Notes under the pieces: generated by a model
What the model saw: the letters and a program-made list of their open reading frames with translations, nothing else
Told to the model about the DNA's origin: nothing
Database searches by the model: none
DNA from: Geosiphon pyriformis
Taxonomy: Eukaryota > Glomeromycota > Glomeromycetes > Archaeosporales > Geosiphonaceae
NCBI GenBank assembly: GCA_016748015.1
Contig: JAAOMT010000659.1
Coordinates: 446,241-510,240 of the forward strand
Direction of reading: 5' to 3'
Length of the DNA stretch: 64,000 bases
Part shown: piece after piece, positions 1 through 49,804 of the stretch
How the letters are laid out: each line of letters starts with the position of its first letter
How positions within the stretch are numbered: the first letter of the stretch is position 1
Program-made: the position numbers and the translations under genes

Positions 1-1949
1 GACCAATCTGTTGGGATTGTTAATGTCTCCAAATATTGTTTGAGATTGTTGTAGTTTTCAGGGTTCATTGTTTGTTGTTTTGATGCTGTTAATTCAGATG
101 GGTGTTGGTTTTGTTTTCTAATCTTGCCTCATTCTTGAGAAACAATCAACGTTGGTGTGGAGTTTTCCTGGTTTGTGGTGTACGATGTATTGGTAATTAG
201 CTAAAAATCCTGTTCATTGGGTTTGTTTTGCGTTCAGCTGGGTGTTTTTGTTTTGAAGCCATTTAAGTCCAATATTATCAGTGATAATATCAAATTTTTT
301 GGGTCTGAGGTAAAGGTTGAAGTGATGTAGGGCCCAGATTACTGCTGCAGTTTCTAATTCTGTTGTGGGGTAGTTCTTTTTGGCTGGCTTTAATGTTCTA
401 CTAGCATAAACAATTACTCGCTCATTTCCATTGTCATCTAACTGTGATAGGATGGCACCAAAGGCAGTATAAGAGGCGTTAGTTGCTAACTGGAATTGGT
501 TGCTGAAATCTGGGTAGGCGAGGATTGGAGCTGTTGTGAGTTTTTCCTTAAGTATCTCGAAGGCATTTTGGTGTTCTTCTGTCCATTTGTATTCAACATT
601 TTTAATAGTGAGCTGGTTGAAGAGTTTCGTAATTTCTGAGAATTCTTTGATGAATTTTCGGTAATAGGATGCTAATTCAATAAATCCTCTTAATTCTGTG
701 GTATTTTGTGGAGTCTTAAAGTTCTTGACAGTACTGATTTTTCCGGGGTCTGGTTTAATTCCATCTTTGCTAACAATGTGACCAAGAAAAGCTAAACTTG
801 TTTTTCCGAAGTAGCATTTTTTAATGTTCAATTTCAATCCTGCTTTCCATAATCGTTGAAAAACTTCTCGCAGGTGACTTAAATGTAGCTCGAAAGATGG
901 TGAATAAACATTAGTGTCATCAAGATAAACTACTACTGATTTCCAAAGAAGGTCTTTGTAAACAACATCCATGAGTCTTTGGAATGTTGCTGGTGCATTG
1001 CATAATCCGAAAGGCATTACATTGAATTCATAATTTCCTCCTTGAGTGGTGAATGCTGTTTTGAAGCAGTCTTTGGGATCCATAGCAACTTGCTAGTATC
1101 CACTCTCTAAATCTAATGTCAAAAAGTATTTGGACTTTCCAAGGGCATCCAACATGTCATCAATTCGGGGAAGAGGGTAGGCATCCCCAATGATGACACT
1201 GTTGAGTTGTCAGTAATCAACACAAAATCGTATCTTTCCATTTTTCTTTTTAACTAGAACTACAGGTGAGGCCCATGGGCTCATTGATGGTTGAATAAGT
1301 CTATTGTTAAGCATCTGTTGTACTTCTTCTTGGATAAATTGGTGACTTTCTAGAGCAACTCGGTAGACTTGTTGTTGCCTGGGTTTGGCATCTCCTGTAT
1401 AGATTTGGTGTTGAACCAAATCAGTTCTTCCTAAGTCATTGTTGTTTTCAGTGAAGATATCAGCAAATTCTGCAATTAGTTCTTTGAACTGGATTTGTTG
1501 TTGTAGTTCAAGTTGTCCCATGTTGATTTGAGATAGTTTTTTCATGACAACATGGTAGTTTTCAGAGCTAAGGTTTGGGTTGATTTTCAGTAGTGAATGT
1601 CCAATAATTTCAGGAAAATTGGGGACTGTTTGGGGTAATTCTTGTTGAAATATATTACTGTGAATAACTCCAATTTCTAAATTATTTAATAAAATTATGG
1701 AGTAATTATTGGGGTTGTAAAAAGTAACTCGGACTTTCTTTGTTCTTTCTGGAATATAAATGTTTGGGATCAAAATATTATGTTCCAAGCAGACTTGATC
1801 ATTGGACTCAAAAATTTGTTGTGTGGTTGTCGGCTTTGTGCAAGTGTAGATTTCCAGATATTCTCCAAAGGGTGAGATGGTAATTGGTTGTGGAAGTCTG
1901 AGAATCTGGTGGGATTTGTTCTGTGTGTTAAGAGCTATATTAACTAGAA
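1..1949 (-). pseudogene. Element A reverse transcriptase-RNase H
   Basis: After a connector of about 150 residues, the RT fingers begin with P-W-A-S-P-V-V-L-V-K-K-K-N-G-K-I-R-F-C-V-D-Y, followed by a TGA at 1210. The palm contains the T-L-D-L motif, a Trp-to-stop TAG at 1093 in S-G-Y-W-Q, and the catalytic Y-L-D-D at 927-916. RNase H follows (Y-A-S-R-T-L, T-E-L-E and T-D-N motifs), but its first catalytic Asp (normally T-D-A-S) reads T-N-A-S, a G-to-A change. A TGA at 214 is followed by the RNase H-integrase linker, which runs off the window. The copy is enzymatically dead as written but structurally almost complete. Confidence 0.88.
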
Positions 1950-2349
1950 CTGTAAATTGTCCAGTTGAACCAAAACCTTGGGTTCCTCTATCGCTTTTTC
2001 CTAATTGTTTTCTTTGATTAACTAGTTGCAAACCCGAAATGTTGATTAAGGGTAAGTAAATAGCTTGGGCAATTTTTTCAGCATGTTCGATCTTGAATGG
2101 TTTGTCAATTTCATTTTGAAGCATCACTGTTATGTCTCCAGTATATCCAGCATCGATAATTCCTTCTCTGACATTGATTTCTTTGCTTGCCAGAGAGGAC
2201 CGGAAAGCGATTTGAACCATTGCTCCTGATGGGATTTCGAGTGCAATTTTGAGGTTGATTTTTGTGAGAGATTTGGGTTTGAGAACAAGAGTATCTTTGC
2301 CTGGATATCTTAGGTCATATCCAGCATTAATTTCGTGTGTCTTTTAGGG
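1950..2349 (-). pseudogene. Element A dUTPase domain (dUTP diphosphatase)
   Basis: dUTPase hydrolyses dUTP to dUMP and pyrophosphate, keeping uracil out of DNA; in a retroelement it would act during reverse transcription. All five motifs of the trimeric family are visible in order: N-A-G-Y-D-L (motif 1, about 2330-2312), P-S-G-A-M-V-Q-I-A-F-R-S-S-L-A (motif 2), G-I-I-D-A-G-Y-T-G-D-I (motif 3, with the catalytic Asp and Tyr), K-I-A-Q-A (motif 4) and R-G-x-Q-G-F-G-S-T-G (motif 5, about 1989-1961). Only a TAA at 2344, just before motif 1, breaks it. It sits between the cysteine module and reverse transcriptase in the same frame. dUTPase-containing Metaviridae have been described from basidiomycetes (from memory); the domain order here should be compared with them. 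Confidence 0.9.
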
Positions 2350-3984
2350 TTTTATTTCTTGTCCATTGTTGTTGAAGTATTTAAGTTGTAAGACAGGCTG
2401 ATTTTCAATAAGATAGATAGGTGTTGTTTCAATTTCTTTCATTTCTTCAGGTTCTCCAAATTCAATTTCATTCTCATCATTCTCACTGGGCAAGGGAATA
2501 CTAAAAGCATAGCATTCAGGACACTACTGTTCATTGCAAGGCATAATGCATTCTTCACATAGCCTAATGTTCATTTGCTCTAATCGTTGAATTTGAGCTT
2601 CTTGGGTCAGGTAGATGTGACTTGCAATTTGGTGGTAGACTTCTACTTTATCTTCATAATTGAATCCAGCTAATTCCATAGTGTATTCAATGTATTCTGC
2701 TTCTTTCATTTGACAAACATCTTCTTTGGTAGCTCCATTAATTAATGCCATTGCTAAATCAAAAATCATCTCGGCATCATAAGGGTAGTGATAAAGTTTG
2801 TTGAAAGCACTATTATATGCTGTATTAAAGGGTGTTCCTCTTTTTACTTTTTCTGAAATTGATAAAGCATATTGACAGGTCTGATCGCAGATGCCTCCTT
2901 TTATTGCTACATCAATCCAATTGCATTCTTCTGGTAGCATATCTCCACAAGTCAAACAAGGGGTGTTGTCCCATTTTCCACTCCTTTTTATTAGATGGCC
3001 CCATCGCTCTCTGTGGCAAGCCTTGCAGTAATAAAAAGTATGATTCTCATATTTTTTTTCAGGTGAAATGCAGGCTCCCATTGACGATAGTTTCTTGTGG
3101 CAGTCCTTACATTTAAGGGGAATATAGAGGCGTTGTTTTCTTGGTTCGGGTTTTAAGTAAGGTATATTCCATCCAGAGGTTTCAGGTTTAGTGTGTGGGG
3201 TAAAATGTTTTTGTTCTGTTTCATCAGCCCAGTTGGACGTTGATCCAAGAGCCATGAATGTTTCGATTATTGGTTTTTCTTCTTCTGGTTCAAATTTAAA
3301 AGCTGGGGCTTTTTCAGAGCGTTTGTTGAATGTACCACAAATGGCAGGTACTCGGGCATGTTGTCCTTGGTAGAAAATTGTTAACTCTTGTGTTTCCCAA
3401 TTCAGATTAGCATTGGCTTTTTGAAGCCAATCATTTCCGACGAGAGCTTGATACTGAAGTGCGTCCATTACAAGAACTTTGACTGAAATGGTGATTCCAT
3501 CAAGAGTGAATAGAAAATTGTCAATTTCTCCTACTGGTGTCTTTTTCATGCCATCGGCAGTGACGATTACTGTTTGAGCTGGTCAGTCAACATTTCTTTT
3601 CAACTGTTGCATTAACTGGTAGGTAATAATGCTTCCAGCAGATCCACTGTCTAGGATCAAGCGAATTGGCTTTCCTTCTACTTCAGCTTCTGCATACATT
3701 GCAGTGATAGCTTTTTGCTCATTAGCTGCTGCATTGCTAAGCAAGAATGGTGATTCATTTGCTTCAAATTCAAAAGGAAAGATATCAGAGAGATTGGCGT
3801 TTTCAGCAATTCGGGCTGGTGGAATAGTAGTGTGGTTATGAGAAGGGTTTCGTTGTTGTTGTGCTGCAACTCTATCTTCCAAGGGTGCAGTATGGTGAAA
3901 ATCCTGTTCTTCCAGCATTGTTAAATAACTGGGTTGAGTGTGGTAATGGTTGGATCTTGGTTGAGTGGTATTTCGGAGAACCAA
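2350..3984 (-). pseudogene. Element A protease and CxxC-rich module
   Basis: This continues the gag frame. A retroviral-type aspartic protease has its D-S-G triad at 3651-3643 inside L-I-L-D-S-G-S-A-G-S. The frame breaks at 3580 (TGA) and resumes with the rest of the protease fold. There follows an unusual module (about 3115-2870) with CxxC pairs: C-K-D-C, C-K-A-C, C-L-T-C and C-D-Q-T-C, plus single cysteines, the look of two or three zinc ribbons. A second group (C-E-E-C, then C-P-E-C across the TAG at 2524) lies just before dUTPase. I know of no named domain for this insert. The same cysteines recur in element C, so it was under selection in the family. A role in nucleic-acid binding is a guess. 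Confidence 0.72.
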
Positions 3985-5004
3985 TTGGTTGTTCGAATTG
4001 ATTCTACTGTTGTTTACATGGTATCGGTTTTGTGGTGTAAATTGATTTTGTGTAATCAGTCTTCGAGCAGATACTTGATAATGTTGTGTGGGTGGTTGCT
4101 GGTATTGCTGTTGGATTGGTTGTGGGGCAGGCTGATAATAGTTATTTTGGTATTGGGGTCTTGGTAAATAGTAAGCTGGTGGTGATGGTTGATAATAAGA
4201 TTACTGTAGTGGAGAGTAACGTTAATTACCCCTATTTTGTTGGTCTCGTTGCAGCTTTCTGCAATCTCTTTTCCAGTGACCAGAGATTCCACAGTAATGG
4301 CAATTCTGGGGCTGGTTATTGGAAAGTGGTGTAAAGTTATTTTGATTTCATCTTTGGGATGGTTGATATCTTTGGGGCTGTTGTTGTTGTTGGTTGGTAA
4401 AATAGTTTTCAACCTTCTTTGTGAGTTGGTCAATTTTTTCTTCAGCTGCTGAGCTGGGTTCTCCAATTGTCAAATTTACAAGTTTTGTATGATTGGCTTC
4501 TTCCATGGCCATTTCGTATCTTTTCGTATGCTGTATGGCAGAGTTTAAATCTTCTGGCACGTGTGGGCAAACCTTTTTAATTAGTTTATCTTTTAGACCA
4601 GCGATAAATTGATCCAAGATTTGAGCATCGGAATAATAATTGTTTGTCTCGAGTTGGCAAATCTGTCTGAGAAGTTTGTTGAATTTCTCAATATAAGTCA
4701 TAACGGATTTGGAGGGTTCTTGTTTGATATTTCGAAAACGATTGCGAAGAGTGATGGAGGTATTATTGTCAGTGAACTGTTCAAGGAAGGCTGCTTTGAA
4801 AGCATTCCAATCATTGAATGGAGCGGCAAGGTTTTCAAACCATTCTCCTGCTGTTCTTTTGAGAAAGTAGGGAATTGTTCTTAACATTCTGGCAGCATTT
4901 CATTCATTTGCATCTTCAGCTTTAGTAACTTGGTCAAGCCATTCTTGGGGACTGGTCTCAATATCTTCTCCATTGAATTCAGGAATTTTTGCGATGTATG
5001 CTGT
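3985..5004 (-). pseudogene. Element A Gag with CCHC zinc knuckle
   Basis: This is the capsid/nucleocapsid part of element A. The Retrotrans_gag-like region (roughly 4887-4470) has the usual W-F-x-N-L, F-x-x-x-F and L-x-x-x-R-F-R pattern and helical C-terminal half. It is followed by a Gln/Asn/Pro/Tyr-rich tail and one CCHC knuckle at 4302-4261 (C-x2-C-x4-H-x4-C, all four ligands present). The frame carries stops at 4900 (TGA), 4348 (TGA), 4222 (TAA) and 4201 (TAA). Each can come from a Trp, Arg or Gln codon by a single C-to-T or G-to-A change. The frame runs straight on into protease, so Gag and Pol would be one polyprotein. The extreme N terminus is lost at the adapter join at 5005. Confidence 0.82.
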
Positions 5005-5100: not shown

Positions 5101-6065
5101 TGTTACCAGAGGTTTTTGGTTTCTTTTCTGTAATGTTGTTGATACTTATTTGCTGTGAATTCACGTTTTCTGGATGTGGTTGAACCTCCAATAACTGAAT
5201 TTATCTTCAAATTATCTCCTATAATTTGAACTGCTGGGCTTATAAGTAGAATAGCCAATTCTGTGCCAGTTGCTTTATGTAGTTACATTGTAGTAAACAT
5301 CAACTCTTTCCTAGGAATTGCTTATCTGGAAGCTCACAAAAAAAATGTGTAGTTACTTTGCTGTGAAAGTCAACTCTTCTACAGGAATCTCATCTGTAGG
5401 TTACCCTAATGATTATGATAAGAAAATAAAAGAAAATAGAAGAAATGTAAAAGAAATGGAATTTTATCAAGGAAAACGTTTTCTATCCAGATCTGGAGTC
5501 ACTAACAGTTTACTGAAATTGGTAGCTAATCAATTTCAAAATGTTAGTTGGGTTTTGAGGATTTTCCAAGTGCAATAATTTAAAGAGTTTGGTTTTTTGA
5601 ATTATTTGATATTTATTTTTTTTTGCATATATAGGAATGGTTTTTAAGTGATAAATCTAAAGTAAGATACATTTTCTCGAAGAGAGAAGCTCTTCTTTTA
5701 TACAACTTGTTGTAACACTATTCTATGAACTTGAACTTTGCTATTTTCTACAATTTCGCTGAACTAAAGATACATTTTGGCGAACTACAAGTTATTTTGG
5801 TGAACTATTAGATATTTCGGTGAACTATCAATTATTTCTACAAATTTCTACAAATTTCAGCAAACTTCTGAATGTTACATAGTTCAGGGTATTGCATAAT
5901 TGATCATCGCAATTAGGTTACATTTGTGTTGTGTACAATTTGAGTTATTAATTAAATGATAATTTCGGACATTTTTTTTTTTTTTTTGCTAATGTAATAA
6001 GTGATCATTTAAAACAATAATATATGCTAATTAATGATAGAAATTATAAGATAATTTCATGCTAA
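5101..6065 (-). repeat. LTR of element A (5' LTR, truncated about 30 bp)
   Basis: On the plus strand it begins TGTTACCAG at 5101 next to the primer-binding site. The same sequence recurs at 60699-61651 in element E, where the far end reads CTGATAACA, so the intact LTR has TGTTACCAG...CTGGTAACA inverted ends. Here homology to the E copy stops at about 6065, before that end, and integrase sequence of element B begins within a few bases. It contains a fourfold 20-bp tandem repeat and a 16-base T run near 5973. Confidence 0.82.
5761..5841 (-). repeat. Fourfold ~20-bp tandem repeat in LTR-A
   Basis: Units begin with GAACTA at 5761, 5782, 5802 and 5822 (spacing 21, 20, 20) and end in ATTT(T/C). 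The decayed LTR of element E keeps the same array near 61365-61445. It lies in the middle of the LTR and could hold repeated regulatory sites, which is inference. Confidence 0.75.
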
Positions 6066-6948
6066 ATAATATCTCTAATTTCGTTTGGTAACATCGTTCA
6101 TAGAGCAGATAAAAGGGTTTATAACTTGTTATGTCATGATTCACAGTTCTATAGGTGAACAAAGCTGAAGGCAATACTTTGTCCCATAGGTTGGTTTTTT
6201 CACTGGTTTTGGCTAGGGTTTCACATAGTGTTCTATTGAAACGTTCTACTAGGCCATTTGTTTGGGGGTAATAAGAGGAAGAGAGTTTATGACATATTCC
6301 CATTTTTCTGCAAAGTTCTTCAACCAGTGTACTGAGAAAAGCTTTTCCTCTGTCAGATAAAAGTTCTTTGGGGCAGCCATAGCAACAAATGATATCTTCA
6401 TAAATGAAATTGGCAATTGAGACTGCTGTTTGATCTGGGGTGGTTCTTGCTTCTACCCACTTTGTAAGATAGTCAGTAGCTGTGATAATGTATCTGTTGC
6501 CATCAGAAGTTACTGTTAAAGGTCCAACAACATCTATACCAATTCTGTCAAATGGTTGACCAACAGAGATTGGATGGATATTTTTCTTGCAATTGGGTTT
6601 TCCTCTTCTTTGGCAGGTATCACAGATTTTAATGTATTCAGCAATGTCTTTTCCCAAGGTAGGCCAATAATAGTGAGCTAAAGTTTTCTGAATTGTTTTT
6701 GTTTTTCCAAAGTGTCCAGCTAATAGATTAGTGTGCATATTGTAGATCACAATTTCTCTTTCTTCAAATCTAATGACTCTCTGGGGGTGGTCAGAATCTT
6801 TTTTATTTCTTTTATATAACTGGTTCTGGCAAATCAAATAGAAATTTGATTGTTTGTGCAAATGTTCTCTTTGCTGTCGAGTATAGTCCGGCAGGTATTG
6901 TCCTTTACCCAAAAATTCTATTAAGACAGAGTAGTTGTCCAAGTCCAT
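6066..6948 (-). pseudogene. Element B integrase, C-terminally truncated
   Basis: Integrase inserts the cDNA copy into the host genome. The N-terminal HHCC zinc finger is present (H-T-N-L-L-A-G-H, then C-D-T-C). The DDE core is complete: G-I-D-V-V-G-P-L for the first Asp, L-L-S-D-R-G-K-A-F for the second, and Q-T-N-G-L-V-E-R-F-N for the Glu. The frame is open from the ATG at 6948. Homology to integrase ends soon after Y-L-L-Y-E-R, and the last dozen residues read into LTR-A, so the GPY/F-type C-terminal region is gone. Integrase is in a different frame from upstream RNase H because of small indels at about 7184 and in the linker 7100-6950, which also carries several stops. Confidence 0.88.
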
Positions 6949-7180
6949 TATTGTGTTTGTTTGTGGAGGAGTTACAAATAATTAAGTTGGTTTGGTTTGA
7001 GAGGGTTTTGCTATTACTGGATGATAAGTCTGGAGAGAGTGTCGGTGTTTTGATGATTAGCTCCTTTGTGGTGTTGAATGTCATAGTCGAATTCATCCAA
7101 GTAGAGTATCCAGCGAGTTATCCATTTATGTTCCAGGTTTCTTTTGTTGCATAGCCAAACCAAAGCTTGATGATCTGTTA

Positions 7181-9715
7181 TTACCAAAATTTTACACCTT
7201 TAAGATATTTGTTCCAATAGCTGGTAGCCCAAACTACTGCTAAGCATTCTTGCTCTGTGACTGAGTAGTTCTTTTCTGCTGATGTGAGAGTTCTACTGGC
7301 ATATGCTACAGCATGTTCCCTGTCATCTTTGTCTTTCTGGAAAAGAACAGCACCAAGTTTATAGCCAGATGCATCAGTATGGAGGATAAAAGGTTGATCC
7401 AGATTAGGTTGCATGAGGATGGGTTCTGTAACCAGTTTTTCTTTCAGAATTTCAAATGCTTTTTGTTGATGAGTGTTTCAGTGATAATTGATGTTTTTCC
7501 TAAGTAGCTGATTGAAAGGAGCAGCGATTTTGGAGAAATCCTTGACAAACTTGCGATAATAAGAGGCCAAACCAAGAAAAGAGTGTAGTTCATAAATATT
7601 CATTGGTTGTTTAATGTTTTGAACTTTTTCAATTTTGGCTAGATCAGGGAAGATTCCATTTTTTGTAATAAAATGACCAAGGAACTGGGTGGATTGATGT
7701 TCAAAGAATGATTTGATTGGATTGATCTTAAGGCCAGCATTTCTAAGGAGGTCAAAAACCTTTTGCAAATGTTCAAGGTGTTCATTCCAGGTTTTTGAGT
7801 ATACCATTGTGTCGTCCAAGTAGACTAAAACAAAGTTTTCTTTTACTGATTCAAATACTTTGTCCATTAAGCGTTGAAAAGTGGGAGGAGCATTTGTGAG
7901 ACCAAAAGGCATAACTGTGAATTCATAGGTGCCATACTTGGTGATGAAGGCAGTTTTCTTTCTGCTTTCTAGATCCATCTCTACTTGCCAGAATCCAGCA
8001 GTTAAGTCAATGGTTGAGAAGAAAGTGGCACCATGGAATTGGTCTAGCATTGCATCAATCTTGGGAAGTGGGTACATATTTCTTTCAGTAATGACATTTA
8101 ATTGGTGATAGTCAACACAAAAGCATAGGGTTCCTCTTTTCTTGGATACCACTACAACTGGGAATGTCCATTCACTCTTGGTTTCTTGTATGAATCCAAG
8201 GGTTTTCATTCGGGTTATTTCTTTTTTAATAAACTCATTATTGTACCGGTTGGATTGATAGGGCTTCAAATGGATAGGGCAAGTTTCTTTGGTGATGATG
8301 ATGTGTTGTATCACATGTGTACATCCAGGAGGTTCACCTTCTTTTGAAACAACTGGGCTGTTTCTAGCCAGCAGGTTTTCAATGTCTATCTTTCTTTCTT
8401 CTGGAAAGGGTTCTCTTTGTTCTACAACCAGTGATTGGATTTCAGGTGGTTTGTTTTCAAAGAACTTTTGGACTTCTTTTATTTCCTCATGGAGTATCAA
8501 GCTGATTGGTTTCCAATCTTTGTAATAGATCAGGCAGAACATGCATTCATTGCTAGGAGAATACAATAGTTTGTCGCACCAGCACCGGGCACAAGAACCA
8601 TGCCACCAATAACTGTATTTGGCTTTCTTGCCTGGCTTTCTGTCAAAAGTTTTTCTGAGCATGTCATAATAAGACCAGCAGATCAGCTTGCCATTGACAA
8701 TGATTTCTTCTTTATCTACCTTGACATTATCCAATGGTTTGCCATTGCTGGTGAAGATGGTATAGGCGAGTTCAGCAGTTTCTTCTTGTTCTTCTTGTTC
8801 TTCTTGTTCTTCTTCTTCCTCACTTTTTTCATCATCTGATTTGTCTGATTCATTTTCTTCTGGGCTCTGCTTGGATACTGGGGGAGTTGTCCAATGGCGA
8901 CATTTAACCACAATGGGTTTCTCACCACATCTAATGATTAGTTTACAGAGTTCATAATCAAGCAAAGCTTTTGCTTTCTTGAGCCATTCATTGCCAACAA
9001 TGATGGTGTATTCTTTTGCTTCAGATACTTCCATATCAGTTTCAATGCTGATGCCATTGATGCGGACAGAAATAGCTTTGGCTATGCCAAGCCCTTTCTT
9101 CTTATCACCATGCACATTGGTCATTGGTCGTGTGGATGGTTCATCAATTTTTCTGCCAATTGCTTCAAGAAAGTGTTTAACAATAACACTAACAGATAAT
9201 CCACTGTCTAGAATCAAATCAATGAAATAGCCAGCCACTTGGGCTTTGCAAATTAGAGGAGTGACATTGCTATTGTCAGCAAGTCCAGCTTAGTGAAGGT
9301 ATTTGTTGGTTTTGGGTGTCTTTTTCTTTGGAATCAGAGATTTGTGAAAATCTTTTCTAAATTGTGAATGGGTCATCAATTGGCCAAAGGTTATATGTGC
9401 TGGGGTTTCCATGAGATCTTTGACAACAGAATAGAGGTCGGATTTTTGTACTATTTCTGGGGATTCTAACTTTGGAGGGTTCTTGAAAACTTTGGCTTTT
9501 GGGGGCTCATTGTTGTCAGCAGTTGATGTAGAAGCTTTATTGGGATCCAGAACAAAATCAACTTTGGCTTTTTTCTTCTTTCTTGTGGATTCAGAGAGGT
9601 TGGTTGCTAGTTCATCCATGTTATGGTCATCATTAGTTAAGTTAAAAGCATAAAAGGGGTTTTTTTCTGGTTGACTTGCACTCTCACCCTTTGAAGGTGT
9701 GCCTACCAGTTTAAA
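7181..9715 (-). pseudogene. Element B Pol: protease, cysteine cluster, RT, RNase H
   Basis: The Pol frame is entered by a -1 shift at 9715-9709. A lysine-rich, probably nuclear-targeting linker (K-K-K-K-A-K near 9575) comes first. A TAA at 9290 precedes the protease, whose active site is L-I-L-D-S-G near 9205. An acidic stretch of EEQ repeats (8825-8760) follows, then a cysteine cluster C-A-R-C-W-C...C-M-F-C (8590-8540). RT follows with R-K-K-T-A-F, M-P-F-G-L-T-N-A-P and the catalytic Y-L-D-D at 7822-7811. A Trp-to-stop TGA at 7478 leads into RNase H (H-T-D-A-S-G, Y-A-S-R-T-L), lost by a one-base deletion near 7184 within a T run. There is no dUTPase between protease and RT, unlike family A/C. 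Confidence 0.88.
9703..9715 (-). promoter_or_regulatory. Predicted -1 ribosomal frameshift site (UUUAAAC)
   Basis: The end of gag reads TCT TTA AAC TGG TAG. TTTAAAC (9715-9709) is a canonical X-XXY-YYZ slippery heptamer in the correct register, two codons before the gag stop (9705-9703). Slipping back one base gives TTT AAA CTG GTA GGC, which is exactly the pol frame. Nine bases downstream, CACCTT-CAA-AGGGTG can form a 6-bp stem (one G-U pair) with a 3-base loop, a possible but weak stimulator. Confidence 0.75.
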
Positions 9716-11285
9716 GACTGATAAACAGTGGCTTTAACTAGGGGATCCTCTCCAAAGAAATTGATGTTGGCATGATTGGGTCTTTGGTTGGGCACATTGT
9801 TGTTGTTGGGTCTGTTGTTCTGAGCATCATTGTTTCTGAGAACTGGTGGAGGCAGTGGAGGATTGTTGCAATCTCTTAAAAAGTGTCCAGTTAATCCACA
9901 GCAATAGCATACAAGTGGGCCATGATTTTGTTGTCTTTGATAAAGTGGTTGCTGGGGCTGATTGAAGTGTGGTTCAAATTTGGGTCTTTGTGGTTGTTGA
10001 TTTTTTCTGACTGCTTGGGCTAAGAGTTCTAATAACTGGGCAAAATTTGCTGTGAGTCTGTTTATTAACTGTTTATTTGGATTTTGAGTGTGAGTGATAA
10101 AAGAAGTAGCAGCCATTTGAGGGGCAGAAGCCATGACAGAAGCAAGAGCAAAAACTGGTAGTGTGGATCCCAAGTGCATCCTTTGGTTATCTTCAATTCT
10201 TTGTGCTAATTCAATGGCCATATCCATGGTGGGATTATCTTTCAGGGCCAGGAGGGACCAAAGAGCATATGATAGATCAGTTCTCAATCCTTTTGTGAAG
10301 GAGTGAATTTTTTGCTCTTCTGTCCAATTTTTTCTAGAGTCTACACGTTTGATTAGCTTTTTAATAGCCTTGGCATATTCAGTCACTACTTCTCCAAGAC
10401 CTTGGGTTCTTCTTTCCAATTCCATGTGCCATTTGGATATTAATATTGGGGTTCTGAACTTGGCCTCAAATCAGGTAGTGAAAGAGGTATTTTCTTCTCT
10501 AGCATTAATTGGTGTCCATCTGATTATTCTGTGTTGAGCATTGGCATCTGTTTCTTGTAAGAACCAGGTAGCAGGAGAGCCTTAGAAGTAGCCACCAACG
10601 ATTTGAAACTTGTATTCTTCATCATACTGGTTGGCTGTGACAGCTCTCTCAAAATCATCCAACCATTTAATTGAATCTTGTGTATCACCTCTAAATAGTA
10701 GTAGTGGGATATTGTTTCTTCTTCCTAGAGCAGTTTGTATATCTTGGAGGGTGGCCAGAATGTTTGCTTGCATGGGGTCATTAGCCATTGGTTCAGGGGT
10801 AACTGTTTGTGTAGACGAGTCTGATTCACTTGATAAAAGGTCAAAAACAGGGGCAGTTTGGTAACTTTCTTCTTCTGTTTCAAAGGGAGTTTTAGTTGCT
10901 TGATAAGCAGCAATCCAAATGTAGATTTGATGATTCAGATATTCAAAATTAGGAGGCTGTTGTTTAAAGGTTGCAGAATATAAGAGTTGATTGATACTGT
11001 TGTTTCTTTTTTCAAAGTCATTTTTAAAATAAGCTTGGTCAAAGTAATAGATCATATAAGCTATGTAGGTTTCAGCTGAATGCTCGTTCAGAAACCAGTT
11101 CCAAAAGTTTTGAAATTGTTTACTGGATTGTTCTTCAAGGGGGAAACAGATCAAGCAGGAGGGCAGAGGATTAAGTTCAATGAAATCTAGATCGTTTCTG
11201 TTGTGTGCTACAAAGTGTTCTTCTGATTGCTGTGGCAGATATGAGTAATCACCAATACAATGAGGGAATAAGTGAATTTTGACAA
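9703..11285 (-). pseudogene. Element B Gag with CCHC zinc knuckle
   Basis: The Gag frame is interrupted by stops at 10582 (TAA) and 10471 (TGA). The capsid region follows the second break (W-H-M-E-L-E-R-R-T-Q, K-L-I-K-R-V, F-T-K-G-L-R-T-D-L). The nucleocapsid has one knuckle, C-Y-C-C-G-L-T-G-H-F-L-R-D-C, near 9910-9869, between Pro/Gln- and Asn-rich tails. The frame is open upstream through the leader into the primer-binding site, with no ATG until well inside the protein, so the start codon is unclear: it was mutated, or initiation is unusual. Gag ends at the TAG at 9703 within the frameshift signal. Confidence 0.8.
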
Positions 11286-11302
11286 TCTCACAGGGAGCAC
11301 TA
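11286..11302 (-). other. Element B primer-binding site
   Basis: TAGTGCTCCCTGTGAGA on the minus strand, six bases after the LTR end. It differs by two bases from the TGGTGCTCCCTGTGAGG site at 13132-13116; the second base is a G-to-A change in the first triplet. This suggests families B and C are primed by the same tRNA. Confidence 0.6.
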
Positions 11303-11308
11303 CTTTTA

Positions 11309-11963
11309 TGTTATGGGTTGGAGTAATAAGCTAACAAATAGCAAGGGAGAACAGTATTGTATAGTGATGGAAATAAACAAAGAGGGAATTACAATAAGAA
11401 AGCGAATTGAATAAGTAGGAATTCAATGTGCATGATCAGTCTCATAAAAATCACAGTTGCTAATTTTTTCTTAAATCTGAAGGTAGAGAAATAGTCCGTG
11501 ATTGTTAACAAGATAACACTGCTGCTATTATTCTATGCCTCAACTCGGTGATTCTTAGAATCAATAACAGGTATCATTGTGCTTTTCAATTGTTTCTTTA
11601 TTCAATGAATTACAAGAGCAAGCCAATTGCTTCTTAGGCTAATTCTAACAAATACAAATCAAGAAGGGGAAAAGATAAGGTATGTAAATGCCAACAAGTA
11701 GATACTTGAAGATAAGGAAAGGGAAATAAGCAATTATGAGAGGAAGTAATTGATATTGTTTTATTTCATTACTTTGATCATGTCTTTCTACAGCTAAGGG
11801 AATCATCACTTATATAGCTATCTAAAGTGGTCAACAACCAGATCAACGGTCAGACCATTGATCAGGTCAACGATCACTATCTAAAAATAGGGTGGCTAAT
11901 TATATGACATCAGTGGCTAATATATGTGATAACTAATAAAAACTATGGGTTTCAACCATAACA
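11309..11963 (-). repeat. 5' LTR of element B
   Basis: 655 bp bounded by TGTTATGGGTTG at 11309 and CAACCATAACA at 11963, good inverted ends with one extra G. It adjoins the primer-binding site and gag leader of B on one side and decayed LINE sequence on the other, so B appears to have inserted into that LINE. No partner copy is present because the 3' end of B is missing. It is unlike LTR-A and the C-type LTRs. Confidence 0.75.
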
Positions 11964-12459: not shown

Positions 12460-13115
12460 TGTTACTTATAAAGAAAAACAGATATAGAAAATAGTAGACC
12501 AATAAGGAAGTAGTAGTTAACACATGAGCACATTGCTCAAAAAATTATAACATATTGCTTAGGAATGTGAGCAATCTTGTAGAACATAAATTTATATATA
12601 TATAGCAGTAGTATTAAAAGCTAAAAAATAAGTCAATTAGACTCAAAGTCAAGAAAACTGAGAATTAGTAGAACTTTTAAAGTCAATTAGACTTGCAAGT
12701 CATAATTATTAAATACTCTTCTTTCAAAAGATAAAATACTATAACTTAAAATAAAATTACTCTCATATTAATGAAATTATCTATTATCTTTAAATCCATG
12801 TTATTATCTACTACTTAACCTGCTGGCACAATAGCTCTTAATCACGACTATTAACAAAACACTTATTTCTTTATTTTTTTTTATTTTTTATTTTTTTCTT
12901 TTGTTGTTTACTAAATTGATTAAAAAAATTAAGCACTAAGTTATTAACATCAAGAATTGCTTGGTAAAAAACCTTTGCGAGTAGATAGAGCATGTAAAAG
13001 AATTATGGATTACTTATTAAAGAAGTATTGGCCATTAAGCTAAAGAAAAAAATTGACAGAATTGTGATTCTGAGAAGCTACGAATAAACAACTATTAAAT
13101 CTCTGTTGGATTATA
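12460..13115 (+). repeat. C-type LTR, plus orientation, 3'-truncated
   Basis: It starts TGTTACTTATAAAG like the LTRs of element C and carries the same landmarks (CAGTAGTATTAAAAG, a T-rich TTTATTTTT block, GGCCATTAAGCT). It ends in ATTATAC at 13115, where it meets the primer-binding site of the oppositely oriented LTR at 13135-13943. Those two LTRs are the arms of a large inverted repeat. This copy lacks its last 150 or so bases. Confidence 0.82.
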
Positions 13116-13132
13116 CCTCACAGGGAGCACCA
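13116..13132 (-). other. Primer-binding site of the solo C-type LTR
   Basis: TGGTGCTCCCTGTGAGG on the minus strand, directly inside the LTR end (GTAACA TT TGG). It is followed only by GTATAAT before the sequence turns into the inverted LTR copy, so nothing of the element body is left. Confidence 0.75.
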
Positions 13133-13134
13133 AA

Positions 13135-13943
13135 TGTTACAGATGATTATTTGGAGTCTTAAAGCAAATAACAAACTTGTAACTTGGTGCTCAATTAATA
13201 TAATATTGTTGGTAATATCTGAAGGTGTTGTTTGTCTAAAGGTTTTGGTTAAGTTCTTTGTATAATAAACAGAAATTCAATAATTGTTTATTTGTAGCTT
13301 CCCAAAATCACAATTCTGTCAATTTTTTTTTTCAGCTTAATGGCTGGTACTCTTTTAGTAAGTAATTCATAATTTTTTTACATGTTCTATCCACTTGCAG
13401 AAGTCTTTTACTAGGCAATTTTTGACATTAATAACTCAGTACTTAATCCTTTTAATCAATTTAGTAAACAACAAAATAAAAAAAAATAAAATAAAAAAAA
13501 TAAAAAAAAATAAAAAAATAAGTGTCCTGTCAATAGCCATAATTAAAAGCTATTGTGCTAGCAGGTTAAATAGTGGATAATAACATAGATTTAAGGATAA
13601 TGAATAATTTTATTAATATAAGAGTGATTTTAATTCAAGTTATAATATTTTATTTTTTGAAGGAAGAGTATTTAATAATTATGATCTGTGAGTCTAATTG
13701 ACTCTAAAAGTTCTACTAACTCTTAGTCTTCTTGACTTTGAGCTTAATTGACTTATTTTCTAGCTTCTGATACTACTACTATATATACATAAATTTATGT
13801 TCTATGAGATTGCTCATATTCCTGAACAATATGTTATGATTTCTTGAACAATATTCACATTGCTGAGCAATGTACTCATGTGCTAACTACTACTCCTTTA
13901 TTGGTCTATTATTTTCTATATTTGTTTTTCTTTATGAATAACA
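13135..13943 (-). repeat. C-type LTR, minus orientation, full length
   Basis: 809 bp with TGTTACAGATG at 13135 and ATGAATAACA at 13943. Its reverse complement matches 12460-13115 over the whole length of that copy, mostly with transitions. It keeps the 3' portion missing from the partner. A (TAAAAAAA)n-like A-rich tract lies near 13480-13520. Confidence 0.85.
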
Positions 13944-16200
13944 TCATATTAAACTTAAGTTTAATTTTTTAATAAACATAATAAACAGTCTTAAAAACAT
14001 TTTAAACAAAATGATAAATATTTTTAGATATTGCAAATATATTATTAATTATAAAAAATATAAATTAATTATTGAATTATATAATAAAAATTTATTAATA
14101 TAATTTAAAAATTATTAATTTTGTATTTTTATGTAGTTATCTAAAATATATTAATATAATATTTATAAATAAATAGACAAATAATGTTATTTTTTTGGTT
14201 TTTTAAAATAATTAAAATTTACATAATTGCTTTTAAAAAATCTGTATAATTATATAATTTTTTAAGTAAATAATTTAAAATAATCAAAAATAATATAAAA
14301 ACTAAATTAATTTTGTATTATGTAAATTATTAAATCAATTAAATTAAACTTTAAAATTTAAATTATATACTTTTTTAAAATAATATTATATAATACAAAA
14401 TAAATATTAATTAAAAAAAACTTGGATTTTGTTTAAAATATACATAAATATTTATGTTAATTCAGAAAAAATAAAATTGTTTAATTTTGTTAATAAGTAT
14501 TTATAATTATTTAGTTTTTTTAAATAAGAAAAAAATTGATTAAATAAATTTTTTAACAAATTTAAATTTATTATGTATTAGATTTAAGACTTATAAAACA
14601 TAATTTATTATAAAAAAAATATTAATACAAAGTTTTTATTAAAAATAAAAGTATTAATATTTTATATAATTAAAATTTTTATTAATATAAATTTAAATAA
14701 ATAGCAATTAATAATTAAGTTATAAATAATAAATTATATAAATAATATAATTTAAGTAGAAAATAATTTTTTAAAGTTTGATTTTATATTAGAAAAAATC
14801 TGTTAAGATTTTAAGTACATATTTTTTAAAAATTATAATATAAAAAATAAAAATATTGATTTTTATAAATTATATAACAATAAATAAAAAACAGATACAA
14901 ATAATAAATTATTAAAATTAATACAATATATATAATACTTAGTAAAAAATTAGATATTTTGATTAATAATACTATTAATTTTGGTATTGTTTATAAATTT
15001 TAAAAAGTTAGATATTAAAGTTGTATTATTTAAAAATAATAACTTATCTATTATAAAAAAAAATTGTTTTCAAAAATTCTATAAATATAATGCAAAAAAT
15101 TTTGATATAAAAATAAAATATAAGATAGAAATAATCTTAATATTTTATATCTAATTTTTTATTAATAAATATAAATTATTATTTGAATTGGTTAAACTAT
15201 TATTTTGTCTGTTTTAAGTTATTAAAATTGATTAGAACTTTGAATTTTTAAAATAATATATAAAATATAGTTTTAATTAGTTCAAATAATTGATTATGTA
15301 TTATAAATTTATAAACTATATTTAATTTAAAATTAATATTGTTATATTGTATTAAGTAATAGTTAAATTACGTTTATTATTACATAATAACAATAAAAAA
15401 TTAAATTATAAAATAATAATAAAATTTTAATTGATAACACAAAATAAAATAAAAATTTATATTAAATTCAAGTTAAATTTAATTTATAATATTATATAAT
15501 ATAATTTTTAATTAGTTTAATAGATTTGGTAAATATTTAATTTATTAATTTAATTTGGTTTAATTTAAAATAATATTATAAAAAATAAAATTGTTTACCA
15601 AGTTTTTATATTATTTTCAAATTTATAATATATTATAATAATTTTTTTATAGTTTAATATAGATTAATTAATTTTTATAATACACATTGCATTTTTGCCT
15701 TTATCATATTGTTGCTTTATTTATCATAGAATGTAGGTTTTGATGGCTTTTTGGCTCTTGATAATTAAGGTATTTATAAAAAATTGTTAATGTTTTTTTG
15801 CTTGGATATTACTATTAAAAAAAAGTTTAAATAATTATTGAGTTATTTTAGTTCTTTTTTGTTATTAAATTTTTAAATTTTTAATATTTAGGTATTGAAT
15901 TTTTTTAATATTTATAATTGTACACATTTTTTTGATAATTCTAAATAAATACTATTATTAAAGCTTATTAAATTTTATAACATCTATTTTTAATAAAAAA
16001 CATTGTTTTTTAAATTTTTTGTTAAAATAATAACAAATATTATTTTTATTCATTTAATAATAATAAAACCTGTTATTTTTTATGATTTTTTATTTTATTA
16101 AATTGTAAAAAGTTATTCATTAGATCATTCCTAAAATTATTATTTTTTATATCACAGTATAAGAATATGTCTAAAATCGTAAAATTTAACTTTTAGCCTA
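13944..16200. other. AT desert without recognisable genes
   Basis: About 2.2 kb of almost pure A/T with no sustained open frame, RNA gene or recognisable repeat. It may be transposon DNA decayed beyond recognition. GC content rises sharply at about 16190, just before the aminopeptidase gene. Confidence 0.8.
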
Positions 16201-19961: not shown

Positions 19962-20237
19962 TTGCTGTCAGTTTAGAGTATTTTTATTATTAGTTGTGTG
20001 TCAAGAAGTAAAATATTTAGAGACACCTTCCAAAGTAGGAAATTATTTTTACAAAATGAAAATTTCAAACTTCCCAACTAAAGAGCTCGAGCTAGTATGA
20101 ATGATATTAAGGATGGATTGATACTCACATAATCTTTTTAAGTTTGGATAAACCTTTGGTTGGGTGGAGGATCGAAAGAAAGAAAATTATTTCACAATTC
20201 TTTTGTCTTTATTCGAGTTACCCCACTAATGGCTCAC

Positions 20238-20248
20238 TCCTGATTGGT
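20238..20248 (-). promoter_or_regulatory. CCAAT-type element upstream of RPS2
   Basis: ACCAATCAGGA on the minus strand, 277 bp upstream of the RPS2 ATG. The identical 11-mer lies upstream of RPL24 at 29001-29011, in the same orientation relative to its gene. It contains the core CCAAT bound by Hap/NF-Y complexes. Confidence 0.5.
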
Positions 20249-20948
20249 AAATATCGAGATCTCTAATCAAGTGACCAAAAATGAATCTTGAAGAACGTAA
20301 AAAAAATACAATTCATCATTTCACTAATATATTTTTATTTGACAAACCTCATTAATCACTCACTTAAAAAATAAAATCATTGTAACATCACCTTCAAAAA
20401 AAATAAAAATATGTTAAATATATTTTTTTAAGCTACAAATATATATATATATATATATATATTATCCAAGTTATTTTATTATTATAAATAATGATTAATT
20501 ATAATTACAATTCATAACATCACTTAAAATTTAATTTATCACAAAAAACATTAAATTTTTTTAAAATATTAATCAAATTATTGTATAAATAGATAATGAT
20601 TTTTATAATTAATAATATAATTAATTTTTTATATCAATAATAGTTTTAATTTATTTTTATGTATTAATTTTTTATATGCAATCTTTCTTCATAAAATTAC
20701 ATTTTTTCTGATTTTTAATTTAATGTTTTAATTGAATTTTATTTTTTTATATTATTAATATATTTTTTAAAGTATTTTAATTTTTTAATTTTGAATCTGA
20801 TATAATTGATTTTAATAAATATGTTTTTAGATAAATAAAGTATATTAAATAATATTTTTTAATAAATATACATTTGTAATTATAATATTAATTTAAAACA
20901 AAGTTTTTTAATTTTAATACTATTTCAAATGCAAAAATAATAACAAGT

Positions 20949-20949
20949 A

Positions 20950-20991
<42 letters not shown>
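20949..20991 (+). repeat. (AAT)n microsatellite
   Basis: Fourteen uninterrupted AAT/ATA units within an AT-rich spacer. Confidence 0.9.
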
Positions 20992-21608
20992 CTAATTAAA
21001 TATTTTTAATGCTAAAATTTCAACAAATTTTTTGTTTTATCAGTTGGTTTCATAAATTATTTAATGCATATTTTATAATTTAAAAACTTAATCTATATTC
21101 AGACAGTATTTTACAATATTATGCAAATAAAATAAATATTAAATACCTTAGATTATGTTAACTAATAAACAATAAAACAATATTAAAAATATTAAAATCA
21201 AAATTAACCAATAACAAAAGTTTATTACAGTTAATAAAATTTATAGTTTTGCCATATTATTATAATAAAATCTTTTTAATAACTATTTTAAACAGTTAAA
21301 AATTTAAGACCACTTTTTATTTTATTGTATTTTATATTGCCAAAATATTTAAAAACTGTTAAATATCAATTTTAAAAATTGTTTTATTGTTTAAAAAAAT
21401 TATATATATATTAAATATAAAGATAATAATTTGTGTAATTATAAAAATACATTTAATTTTTTTGGTACCTATAAATTATTTATAATTCACGTTTTTTTTA
21501 TTATGTTAATTAATTCAAATTTTTGATTCCAATTTTTTTTTTTTTACTTTTTTTTATGAAATTTTGAAAATGGGTTTTAATTAATGTGTAATTCAAAATT
21601 TTTTTTTC

Positions 21609-21609
21609 A

Positions 21610-21643
<34 letters not shown>
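21609..21643. repeat. AAT/ATT perfect palindrome
   Basis: A run of AAT units turns directly into ATT units and back to AA, giving a self-complementary stretch of about 35 bases that could extrude as a hairpin. Confidence 0.75.
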
Positions 21644-22126
21644 ACAAATTTGATAAATTTATATTTAAAAATTCCTTGTAAAAAAAATGATTATAATAAA
21701 TAATAACATTATCTTTAAACTCAAAATTCTTTACCATAAAACAGTTGTTTTTATATAACAAAAAGTTAATTTAGAGTATTTGACTTGATCTGTTAAGTAC
21801 GTTGAAAACTTTAAAATTTTGAGTAAAATTAATCAAAATTGATTTTCATCATTACTAAATATTTTATTTATTTATTTCCCGATATTTAAGAAACTCTGAT
21901 TATTTATTTTTCGACAAACTCGCACACAATCAAAACTAGCCAATTAAGGCCTTTATTATCTTCTTATAAGGAAATCTATGAAGAAGTACTTCAAATTAAA
22001 AAAAAAAACAATTAAGCTATTACATGTAATTATTTTACACTAATAAAGGGGATTAATAGAAAATTTCCAATTGTTTTTCTATCAACCAATCTATTAATAT
22101 TCAAGAATTTGACAAGATAAAAAAAT

Positions 22127-34000: not shown

Positions 34001-34263
34001 TTGTTTACGATCTTGACCGGAAACAAGTTTTGGCATTTGCGAAAGAGAATCCTCACATAAGAAAACATTTAGAAGTGCAAGAGAGAAAGAGAAAACTCGA
34101 AGAAGTAAGCAATCTATATTTTTTCTTACGATTGTTTATGTTTAGTTTTTAACCATTCTGTGCAATTTGTTAGGTGATGGATAAGCTAAATTATTTGGTA
34201 AGGCGGCAGCGAGATATGGAGGGAAAAACTAAGCAATATAATAGAAAAGGGTCAGGATATTAA
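31070..34263 (+). CDS. MGM1: Mitochondrial dynamin-like GTPase Mgm1/OPA1, five exons
   Basis: Inner-membrane GTPase that drives inner-membrane fusion and cristae shaping. Exons 31070-31439, 31528-32077, 32147-32926, 32997-34104 and 34174-34263 give 965 residues in frame. The N terminus is Arg/Ser-rich, as in mitochondrial targeting signals. A hydrophobic segment follows ([16 protein letters not shown]), where the rhomboid protease Pcp1 cuts orthologues. The G domain is complete: G-S-Q-S-S-G-K-S-S (P-loop), switch I after [17 protein letters not shown] and T-K-M-D. Middle and GED-like regions fill the C-terminal half. An acidic (E-E-G-E-E-E-E-E) loop lies before the G domain, and a Ser-rich insert near 33660-33730 splits the helical stalk. 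The last exon codes 29 basic residues. Confidence 0.94.
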
Positions 34264-35797
34264 TAGGATAACTTAATAATACATAATTTAGGTCATGTCC
34301 CATCAGACATACTCATGTATAGCAAAATAAATTTTTCAGAACAATGCGAATTTAGCACAACTCTCGTGAATACACGATATCCCTAATTTTCATAATTAGT
34401 AATGATGATCACGAATAACATGTCTTTCATCGAATCGAGTTCAAGTTGCTTGTGCAAGTATTCAATTGCTAGTTAATAACATTTGAGAGTGTCTTTAGAA
34501 ATTGAATACGAAAAATTTTTAGATTTAAAATTATTTTTTAGATAGAATTATACATTGGGAAAAGATTAATTTAATAATGAAGAACTAGGCGTTGAAAATA
34601 AGTTTTAGCATTATTTATTTATTAAAAAATTATATTATATTTATTTAGGTTATATTATATTTTAAAAAATTCTAGTATTAATATTATTTACAAAGTTTTA
34701 TTTTGTAAAACATATTGGTATCAAAATAAAAATTTATTTTGGTTAAACACAATAAAACTAATTATAATTTTATAAATAAGCTGTAAACAATTAATATAAT
34801 TTTGGGTTTTATGTAACTGTTTTATTTTATATTTAATATTTTTAAATGTATATTTTGATTTAATTTTTTATTGCTATTTAATTATATATGTATATATTAA
34901 TGTTTTTGTTTGTATTATATTATATATTTATTATAATTTTACAATATATTAATATTAATATTAATAAACATGTACTTATTTTCAATTATTAAATTAGTTT
35001 TTAAATATATTTATTTTTAAACCAATTAATAAAAATTTAATAATTGCAAATATTGTTTTAAATTAATATTTTATTAAATTAAATTTGACTTATCAATATT
35101 ATTTTTTAATTTTAGATAAAAAAACAAAACAAATTAAAATTTATTAAATTATTATAATATGATAAGCTAATTTGCAAATTGATAAATTTTTATTAACTTT
35201 ATATTTAAGTAAATATATATATAAATTTATTATGTTTAAATTCAATAATATATATACATAATTAATTGTTTAAATCACAATTTTATATTTTGTACATAAT
35301 TAAAAAATTAGTTTTTTTTGTTTTAATATTTAAGGCAATTAGTTTTTATGTTAATAAGTAAAACTTTAAATATTAATTCTTTTATTTTTATTTTTATTTT
35401 TTTAATTATTAAAATATTATAAATAATTTATTAATTAAATATTTTTAATTTTGTTATATCTTAAAAACTATAAAATACTTATATTTTTTTCTTGGTAAAT
35501 TTTCAAATTTTCAAAAGATAATAAAAAGTAAACAAAATATTTTTAGACTTTAATTATAGCTTTAGTAAAAAAATTTAATTAAATTTTACAGCTGTTTTTT
35601 AATAATAATAAAATGTTTACATGTTTTTTTATATGCTATTTTAAGTAAATTATATATACTAATTAATAATTAAAAATAACAAGTTTTCATAAACACAAAC
35701 TTTATTTTATAAAATTTTACTTTTAAATTTTATATTTATTTAAAAAATTATTAAATTAACTTATCTTTTTTGCTAAATTAATTCATTTACAACATAT
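34264..35797. other. AT desert downstream of MGM1
   Basis: After about 150 bp of 3' flank the sequence becomes almost pure A/T with no coding frame or recognisable repeat. It resembles the stretches 13944-16200 and 42672-43795 in composition. Confidence 0.75.
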
Positions 35798-35808
35798 AAT
35801 ATTATTTA
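35798..35808. repeat. Target-site duplication, left copy
   Basis: AATATTATTTA immediately before the 5' end of the LINE; the exact copy follows its A-rich tail at 42661-42671. AT richness weakens it, but both copies sit flush with the element ends. Confidence 0.7.
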
Positions 35809-35967
35809 AAAAAAATAAAAAATAAACTCTTTTTCTTCTTTATCCCAAATTCCTAAAAAAGAGTCATATTTTGAAAGTAGTTTTTTGTTTTTCACTTGCT
35901 GTACCTCAACATTTCTCTTATAAATAATCTCTTTATTGTGGACTTGGAAGCTGCTTCTGGCAGTAGT

Positions 35968-45250: not shown

Positions 45251-46184
45251 TGTTATTTATAGAAAGTAAAAGTATTATATAGTTAGAAAAATAGCCAATC
45301 AGAAATAAGCATAGTAACAGAAAAATTGCAGAATTTCAGAATTTCAGAATTCCAGAATTTTTTGTAAAGAATTGCAGAATTTCAGAATTCCTCTAAAAAA
45401 ATTGCAGGATTCCAGGAATTTTGTATAATACTAATTATATATATATAGCAGTAGTATTAAAAGTAAGAAAAGCAGAATTTGGTTCAGTTTCAGTTTAGTA
45501 TCCTCTTTTTTATTTATTAATTAACTCTTACTTTACAAATAGTTAATATCTACTAAAATAAATTTATCAACAAAATATCAAATAAAACATATTTATTATT
45601 ATCCAATCTATGTTATTATCATTTGTTTAAGCATCTAACCACTCTTCTATTTATTAACACTTTATATTGATAACATTTAACACTTAATTATACTGAAACA
45701 ATAGTTCTTAATCACAGCTATTAACAGAATACTAATTTTTTTTTATTTTTTTTTATTTCTCTTTTTTATTTTTATTTTTTATTTTTTATTTTGTTGTTGA
45801 TTTACTAACTGATTAAAAAGAATTAATATACAGAATATTAACATTAAGATATAGTACTAATAAAAAACCCAGGAATAAGAGTAAATACTCGAAATTAAGA
45901 ATAGTTTACCAAAAAATACTGGCCATTAAGCTGAGAAAAAAATTGATAAAATATAGATATTTCAAGAAGCAATGAACACCAAAGCATACCAACTTAAGGG
46001 TTGGAAAAGAAACTAAAACATTATAAAAGAATATTACTATTGAATCTCTGTTCATTATACAAAAGACTCAACTAAAACTTTTATATATGAAAACTTTCAG
46101 ATATTACCAACACCATACAAACTATTGAGCAACAAATTATGAGTTTGTTATTTATTCCAACTATTCAAATAATCACTTATAACA
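45251..46184 (+). repeat. Element C 5' LTR
   Basis: TGTTATTTATAG at 45251 to ACTTATAACA at 46184, 934 bp, clearly the same as 54328-55308. It has a CCAATCAG box at about 45294, GAATTTCAGAATTCC-type short repeats (45320-45420) and a T-rich TTTATTTTT block near 45740-45790. The end abuts the primer-binding site. Confidence 0.88.
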
Positions 46185-46186
46185 TT

Positions 46187-46203
46187 TGGTGCTTTCTGTG
46201 AGG
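46187..46203 (+). other. Element C primer-binding site
   Basis: TGGTGCTTTCTGTGAGG, two bases after the LTR. It equals the site at 13132-13116 apart from two C-to-T changes. Confidence 0.78.
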
Positions 46204-48375: not shown

Positions 48376-48378
48376 CCA

Positions 48379-49400: not shown

Positions 49401-49804
49401 GAAAAAGAGCTGTAAAATGTTTAGACAGTTGTCCATATGATGATAACAAAATTTGGTAAATAACAATTGTCAAAATCAAAGACACATCTTCAAAAGAAAT
49501 CAAAACAATTAAAAACAACTTACCAAAACCTGAAAAGATTATTTAGATTCTAAACCCCAATATTATTCTTAATTTTATAGATCTAAAATAATTTTATGAA
49601 CACTACTAGAAATTAGCACTCACTAGAAAAAAGCAAGAGCAATGTTTAGAACAGCTCAATACTCACCTATGTAACCATTGTTTAATTTCATGTAATTTTC
49701 AGTATTGTAATAATTGTGATATTATTTATAATCTACCATTACACATAATCTATTTAATCCTTAAAAAAGAAGAACTAATTAGTAAGTATACAACAAAATC
49801 AAAA

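Follow-up and report, generated by a model that had tools for sequence, protein, structure and literature searches.

The question raised by this locus is why a Ty3/Gypsy retrotransposon of Geosiphon pyriformis should carry a dUTPase inside its polyprotein, and what the domain does for the element. The window, by which we mean the whole stretch of 64,000 nucleotides analysed here, was read together with the G. pyriformis genome (124.7 Mb, 406 contigs). The initial annotation had described a dUTPase with all five motifs embedded in a Ty3/Gypsy polyprotein, and this description was confirmed. The PF00692 search of the ORF at 1210-2343 (minus strand, 377 residues) gave a match well above the cut-off (E 3.3e-19; 69.4 bits against 22), covering positions 12-129 of the 129 in the model, residues 5-128 of the protein and window positions 2331-1960. 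All five motifs are readable in element A, as AGYDL, RSSLA, GIIDAGYTG, EKIAQA and RGTQGFGSTG, stretches which we take to be motifs 1 to 5. The second-best PDB sequence match of the domain is 1f7d (FIV), a retroviral pol dUTPase (E 1.1e-13).

The element that harbors this domain, element A, lies on the minus strand and is a member of the Ty3/Gypsy group (Metaviridae), as it has paired LTRs and gag, protease (PR), reverse transcriptase (RT) and RNase H in order. The 5' LTR is located at 5101-6094 and its partner outside the window at L021:4433-5422; BLASTN aligned the two over 994 bases with 95.07% identity. Reading along the element, the gag capsid region (4348-4899; PF03732 E 5.7e-15, PF19259 E 9.6e-8) is followed by a CCHC zinc knuckle (4261-4302; pattern CX2CX4HX4C) and by a Q/P-rich gag tail with the start of the aspartic protease (3583-4200; DSGSAGS), where the PF13650 match (E 1.8e-4) is weak, with 22.6 bits against a cut-off of 24.3, and is interrupted by a stop. 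Next come a cysteine-rich (Cys) module (about 2524-3147), delimited by own-genome search and conserved cysteines, the dUTPase (1951-2343; boundaries from tblastn), a second domain with an RT-proximal linker (1444-1956) and finally RT and RNase H (214-1443; PF00078 E 4.7e-22, PF17919 E 3.5e-35). The order protease, Cys module, dUTPase, RT had been claimed from the letters and stands, with the correction that the pol frame, a single frame from 4200 down to 214, carries in-frame stops at 3585, 2526, 2346, 1212, 1095 and 216, which also interrupt the RT and RNase H region. This copy is therefore broken as it stands. No clear target-site duplication was seen in the flanks inspected.

Element A is nested in element B (6095-11961, minus strand; gag, PR-RT, integrase and an LTR at 11309-11961), whose LTR-like pair (window 11309-11961 and L021:2682-3334, 92.3% identical) encloses it. 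The integrase ORF at 6031-6981 is part of element B. At E <= 1e-3, element B gave no match to the dUTPase, the Cys module or the second domain. At 8534-8593 (minus strand) it has a short Cys-rich stretch before the RT (CARCWCDKLLYSPSNECMFC); by eye, this looks similar to the first such stretch in the metagenomic protein P0045. Large inverted repeats adjoin element B at 12524-13860, with arms of 409 and 242 nt that are 84-85% complementary. Element C (about 45251-55310, plus strand) belongs to another family and has decayed. The two LTRs that flank it are 80.6% identical over 990 columns and gave zero BLASTN matches to the LTRs of A or B at E <= 1e-3. The element retains, all on the plus strand, remnants of the Cys module (49077-49702; 50-54% identity to P0012, two pieces, ten stops), of the dUTPase (49997-50382; 63-71% identity to P0018, two pieces with one stop and a frame change) and of the second domain (50403-50813), and its RT begins at 50841. 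The earlier proposal that a dUTPase also survives, in decayed form, in a family whose LTRs differ from those of A was borne out. Elsewhere in the window, 35881-42206 (plus strand) holds ORFs like those of non-LTR retrotransposons, in which inspection by eye suggests an endonuclease, an RT and an RNase H, and blocks of 10-18% GC (14001-16000, 20001-22000 and 34001-36000) lie beside segments of 33-42% GC.

The Cys module upstream of the dUTPase shows, in the piece from the window, CxxC pairs at residues 13/16, 41/44 and 64/67, a CxxxC pair at 87/91 and cysteines at 197, 200 and 204. All eleven conserved cysteines are also cysteines in P0178, P0045 and P0176, and from this conservation we infer putative zinc sites. 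The structural model has a pLDDT of 67 and a helical middle; it gave no convincing fold match in the PDB, and Pfam had no match over its cut-off in this region. An identification by fold was dropped, as nothing worth naming was among the matches. Stops were present in 51 of the 58 distinct A-family copies of the module and recurred at some positions. Recoding of these TGA-rich stops was considered and set aside, since decay is the simpler reading given the number of copies with stops and the predominance of C>T/G>A changes.

The block formed by the Cys module, the dUTPase, the second domain and the start of the RT is found across the Geosiphon genome. The PF00692 search gave 3181 first-look candidates, and all 150 that were scored exceeded the Pfam cut-off. 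Queries with the dUTPase and the Cys module of element A gave 4016 and 4070 candidates, respectively, and in either case the 150 places that were scored had 83-100% identity; a place found with the dUTPase query sits in an open frame of 2242 codons. Because only scored places count as confirmed, the copy number is at least 150. The Cys module was found upstream in all 50 dUTPase loci inspected (20/20 from PF00692 and 30/30 from the element A query). In the reverse direction, among the best-scoring loci, the dUTPase was found in 30/30 Cys-module loci, always 804 bases downstream. All four parts were present in 73 of 80 loci, which are 77 distinct copies and the best-scoring ones rather than a random sample; six lacked the RT start and one lacked both the second domain and the RT start. 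At least three block families exist in Geosiphon, namely the A-type, the L007-type and the P0012/P0018-type, which includes element C. The L007-type is mostly 36-42% identical to A in the Cys module and 50-56% in the dUTPase. The proposed sharing of dUTPase and Cys module between families with different LTRs was thus confirmed for three Geosiphon families.

Pairwise dN/dS, calculated by dS bin after removal of duplicates, indicated how these domains have been maintained. Between the bin of dS 0.02-0.1 and that of dS 0.4-1.0, the ratio of the A-family dUTPase fell from 0.63 to 0.13 (60 copies; 342 pairs in the last bin), that of the Cys module from 0.62 to 0.13 (58 copies; 105 pairs) and that of the second domain from 0.54 to 0.21 (56 copies; 83 pairs). 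For the RT start, where the 65 copies include some from other families, it fell from 0.73 to 0.08 (508 pairs). The close pairs (dS 0.02-0.1) ranged from 0.50 to 0.73 overall. High values in close pairs and low values in diverged ones suggest that the older differences between lineages were filtered and that the recent ones are mostly decay after insertion. These data demonstrate purifying selection on the dUTPase and the Cys module in the A family. In the L007 family, which is smaller, dUTPase pairs reached 0.34 at dS 0.1-0.2, and one Cys-module bin of 14 pairs at dS 0.4-1.0 gave 0.56, which is at odds with strong constraint.

The second domain was characterized through its predicted structure, in which residues about 12-98 of 171 take a dUTPase fold that is devoid of the five motifs. 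Foldseek comparison of the model (mean pLDDT 68.1) with the PDB listed 50 matches, all of them dUTPases, with a best E of 3.6e-3, none at E <= 0.001, and probabilities of 0.87-1.00. Against VIA, where Z stayed under 8 throughout, 49 of the 50 matches listed were dUTPases and the other was UL82/pp71; against BFVD, many named matches were dUTPases and some were not. At the sequence level, PF00692 matches only residues 5-128 of the 377, no motif was seen by eye in residues 130-300, and profile-profile comparison of the two domains (hhalign) gave a probability of 0.1%, no better than other compared pairs, for which reason sequence homology between them was dropped. It is rather unlikely, in our estimation, that the second domain is a generic beta-fold linker that resembles a dUTPase by chance or through model bias, as the input rows inspected held zero dUTPase-domain residues in the predicted columns, yet dUTPases made up the PDB list and nearly all of the VIA list. 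On the basis of the model, the elements seem to carry an active-looking dUTPase and a dead domain of dUTPase fold in tandem. When the PR-RT linkers of P0182 and P0184, two Gypsy proteins that lack a dUTPase, were compared by hhalign with the Geosiphon domains, 29 columns aligned with the second domain (P 2.2e-4, probability 45%); the probabilities were 1.2% against the dUTPase and 0.1% against the Cys module. We tentatively consider it possible that the PR-RT linker of Ty3/Gypsy elements in general is a catalytically dead dUTPase-fold domain, which Geosiphon and a metagenomic relative carry behind a live-looking dUTPase. If this is true, dUTPase-related folds would be an old structural part of Gypsy pol and not an occasionally captured enzyme, and if the fold holds in other Gypsy elements, a stretch of pol that is unannotated in many eukaryotes would gain an identity.

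The task of an element dUTPase depends on what the host itself provides. Geosiphon has its own dUTPase gene (L082; G000:C262:402100-403300), split into about five exons, with APRSGL and GVIDADYRG; its product is 71% identical to the Arabidopsis dUTPase and 31% to that of element A. It was found by the motif-3 pattern, which matched two places, this gene and a decayed element copy (L083), and the idea that the host had lost its dUTPase and drew on the elements as a source was then dropped. The yeast DUT1 query had returned only element-type places of 31-37% identity (150 scored of 2922 candidates), and the host gene was not among the scored PF00692 places either. The motif-2 pattern had no match despite the APRSGL of the host gene, because an exon ends there. 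Similarly, loss of UNG was considered and dropped, as the E. coli Ung query matched four neighbouring exons on one contig (G000:C271:277704-278369); PF03167 gave one weak match (L084), TDG/Mug-like by eye, and the GQDPYH pattern had no match in the Geosiphon genome. Thymidylate synthase was found by profile. The fact that the host dUTPase and the UNG-type exons were missed at first shows that genes rich in introns escape profile and pattern searches in this genome. As the host has its own dUTPase and UNG-type exons, the element dUTPase adds to the host enzyme and does not replace it, and the cell is likely to be able to excise uracil.

Taken together, we consider it likely, with a probability of about 0.75, that Ty3/Gypsy elements of Geosiphon carry a Cys module, a dUTPase and a pseudo-domain of dUTPase fold between protease and RT, and that the dUTPase limits uracil in the cDNA. 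By analogy with retroviral enzymes, the dUTPase would be packaged with the RT, probably as a trimer, and would cut dUTP to dUMP where the RT copies RNA. Nearly all studied dUTPases are homotrimers, and retroviral dUTPases have been tied to replication in cells low in cellular dUTPase (PMC4531489). Removal of dUTP would leave little uracil in the cDNA and so little for the host UNG to excise. Less certain are the roles of the other two parts: the second domain may be a dead repeat of the dUTPase fold, acting as a scaffold or cap for the assembly of dUTPase and RT, and the Cys module may bind zinc, and perhaps nucleic acid, besides the gag knuckle. Geosiphon, an early-branching fungus that lives in symbiosis with Nostoc, has kept the dUTPase together with a Cys domain and a second dUTPase-like fold in divergent families, within a cell that also has a dUTPase and UNG-type exons of its own; it therefore allows one to test whether reverse transcription outside animals constantly requires that uracil be kept out.

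The initial annotation had suggested that the dUTPase could be a defence where cytosine deamination attacks repeats, and the decay of the copies bears on this. Derived changes were counted where a base was unique to one copy and the nearest copy and two further ones agreed, with no consensus used. C>T or G>A accounted for 1545 of 1847 such changes (84%) in 53 A-family copies and for 339 of 356 (95%) in 10 L007-family copies. The changes occurred at rates of 0.058-0.071 per C or G. All sequence contexts were affected, and CpG sites were hit roughly three to five times as often as the others. Mismatches between paired LTRs were mostly transitions as well (44/45 in A, 50/50 in B and 128/135 in C). 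A deamination-like attack thus appears real; a process similar to RIP, methylation or a bias of the whole genome may lie behind it. One report states that no RIP signatures were found in Gigaspora margarita or in Mucoromycotina (PMC8647823), and the main text of a RIP survey that includes Gigaspora contains neither Geosiphon nor a word beginning with Glomero- (PMC12543289). PF00145 had ten matches in the Geosiphon genome. A dUTPase, however, removes dUTP and cannot undo cytosine deamination in DNA, so that its substrate is not the one at issue. Moreover, dUTPase-bearing copies are themselves hit, with no significant bias between C>T and G>A among copies (chi2 p 0.08 and 0.85), as expected for an attack on double-stranded DNA after integration, and the dUTPase-less element B, a single copy, has transitions only between its LTRs. 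Chemistry, strand balance and element B leave the suggestion unsupported, and we regard protection of the element against deamination as very improbable. A less improbable alternative, which we still hold to be distinctly unlikely, is that the domain has been kept for a non-enzymatic task such as assembly or spacing, and that catalysis is incidental. The second domain keeps its predicted dUTPase fold without catalytic motifs, which indicates that a fold alone can persist at the PR-RT position. In the A family, conservation in the motif columns barely exceeds that in the others (0.931 against 0.918), which we attribute to recent C>T/G>A damage that strikes both. The catalytic Asp of motif 3 is kept in 46 of 60 distinct A-family copies and replaced by Asn in 14, and nine checked residues are intact in a dUTPase domain free of stops in only 14 of these 60 copies and in 7 of 16 copies of the L007 family, so most of the sampled copies are damaged. 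Against a non-enzymatic task, the deviations at the nine residues are single changes of the C>T or G>A kinds seen in the general decay, apart from one gapped copy, and the five motifs are common to families with dUTPases about 50-60% identical, which is hard to explain without catalysis.

The origin of the domain raises a further alternative, that it was taken recently from the host gene described above. The existence of that gene would permit it, but the host enzyme is far closer to Arabidopsis than to element A, and a tree of 33 rows separates the two. The tree placed the 17 Geosiphon element dUTPases with the metagenomic P0045, P0175, P0177 and P0178 in one group (support 98/98), apart from the cellular dUTPases, which P0186 and a chlorovirus join in a group of their own (97/92), and from the retroelement dUTPases P0180, P0181 and P0183. 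Relatives with the same block come from metagenomic sources, which also argues against a recent capture from the host, an event that we find extremely unlikely. In P0178, the Cys module, the dUTPase and the second domain stand in this order between protease and RT. P0045 combines a Cys-rich region with a dUTPase, and P0175 and P0177 start within or after that region; in these three, no second domain was seen by eye. P0180 has the order PR-dUTPase-RT, without a match to the Cys module. P0186 (546 aa) is, by eye, a Copia-like integrase fragment fused to a dUTPase. The earlier view that the dUTPase is not a one-off capture holds insofar as three families share it, but the single supported group makes one old acquisition, followed by inheritance, the simplest reading. 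The dUTPase of element A is 43% identical to 3mbq, which is presumably a Brucella dUTPase, and 36-40% to three phage dUTPases. From these identities and a small sampling, a bacterial or phage source is possible. Among phages, 268 records matched, each at less than 60% identity, and in IMG/VR ten pattern stretches were found, with zero confirmed relatives. Matches to the dUTPase ORF of element A were from Geosiphon pyriformis in 120 of 120 cases (the best 120 of 450), and those to the L007-family relative in 53 of 54.

Mobile elements with dUTPase domains have been reported from several lineages, and the suggestion that the arrangement in Geosiphon may be undescribed holds only in part. Published accounts mention dUTPase among the domains of transposon-derived proteins in Glomeromycotina (PMC11878562), enrichment of PF00692 in Entomophthora muscae (PMC11105155) and dUTPase-bearing Ty3/Gypsy elements in Postia placenta (PosPlaTy3-5), Phanerochaete chrysosporium and Tuber (PMC2864245). 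PosPlaTy3-5, like the Geosiphon elements, is an LTR retrotransposon with the dUTPase between PR and RT; in the Postia families the position of the dUTPase varies, and the authors think of independent acquisition. The Postia, Phanerochaete and Tuber descriptions, as far as that report was available (PMC2864245), do not mention a Cys module or a second dUTPase fold, and by these descriptions the Geosiphon elements are set apart. Juno, Vesta and TelKA of bdelloid rotifers also have the dUTPase between PR and RT, and in Juno an additional Zn knuckle follows it (PMC5408684), whereas in Geosiphon, compared by description, the Cys module precedes the dUTPase, is about 200 residues long and has several CxxC pairs. 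Lentiviruses and betaretroviruses share a trimer-type dUTPase in a retroelement polyprotein, but there it lies after RNase H or between NC and PR, and the accessible part of the source describes no second, motif-less domain (PMC4531489). In the monomeric herpesvirus dUTPase and in UL82/pp71 the motifs are rearranged within one chain, in contrast to Geosiphon, where the first domain holds all five and the second has none. The cellular dUTPase of Geosiphon belongs to the same enzyme family and has the same motifs, and it differs by its introns, its low identity to the element enzyme and its position in the tree. Our literature search, which mostly covered less than the full texts, encountered neither this Cys module nor a second dUTPase fold. 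Gypsy elements with a dUTPase, including some that have it between PR and RT, are already known, and to these the Geosiphon elements add the Cys module and a predicted second dUTPase fold.
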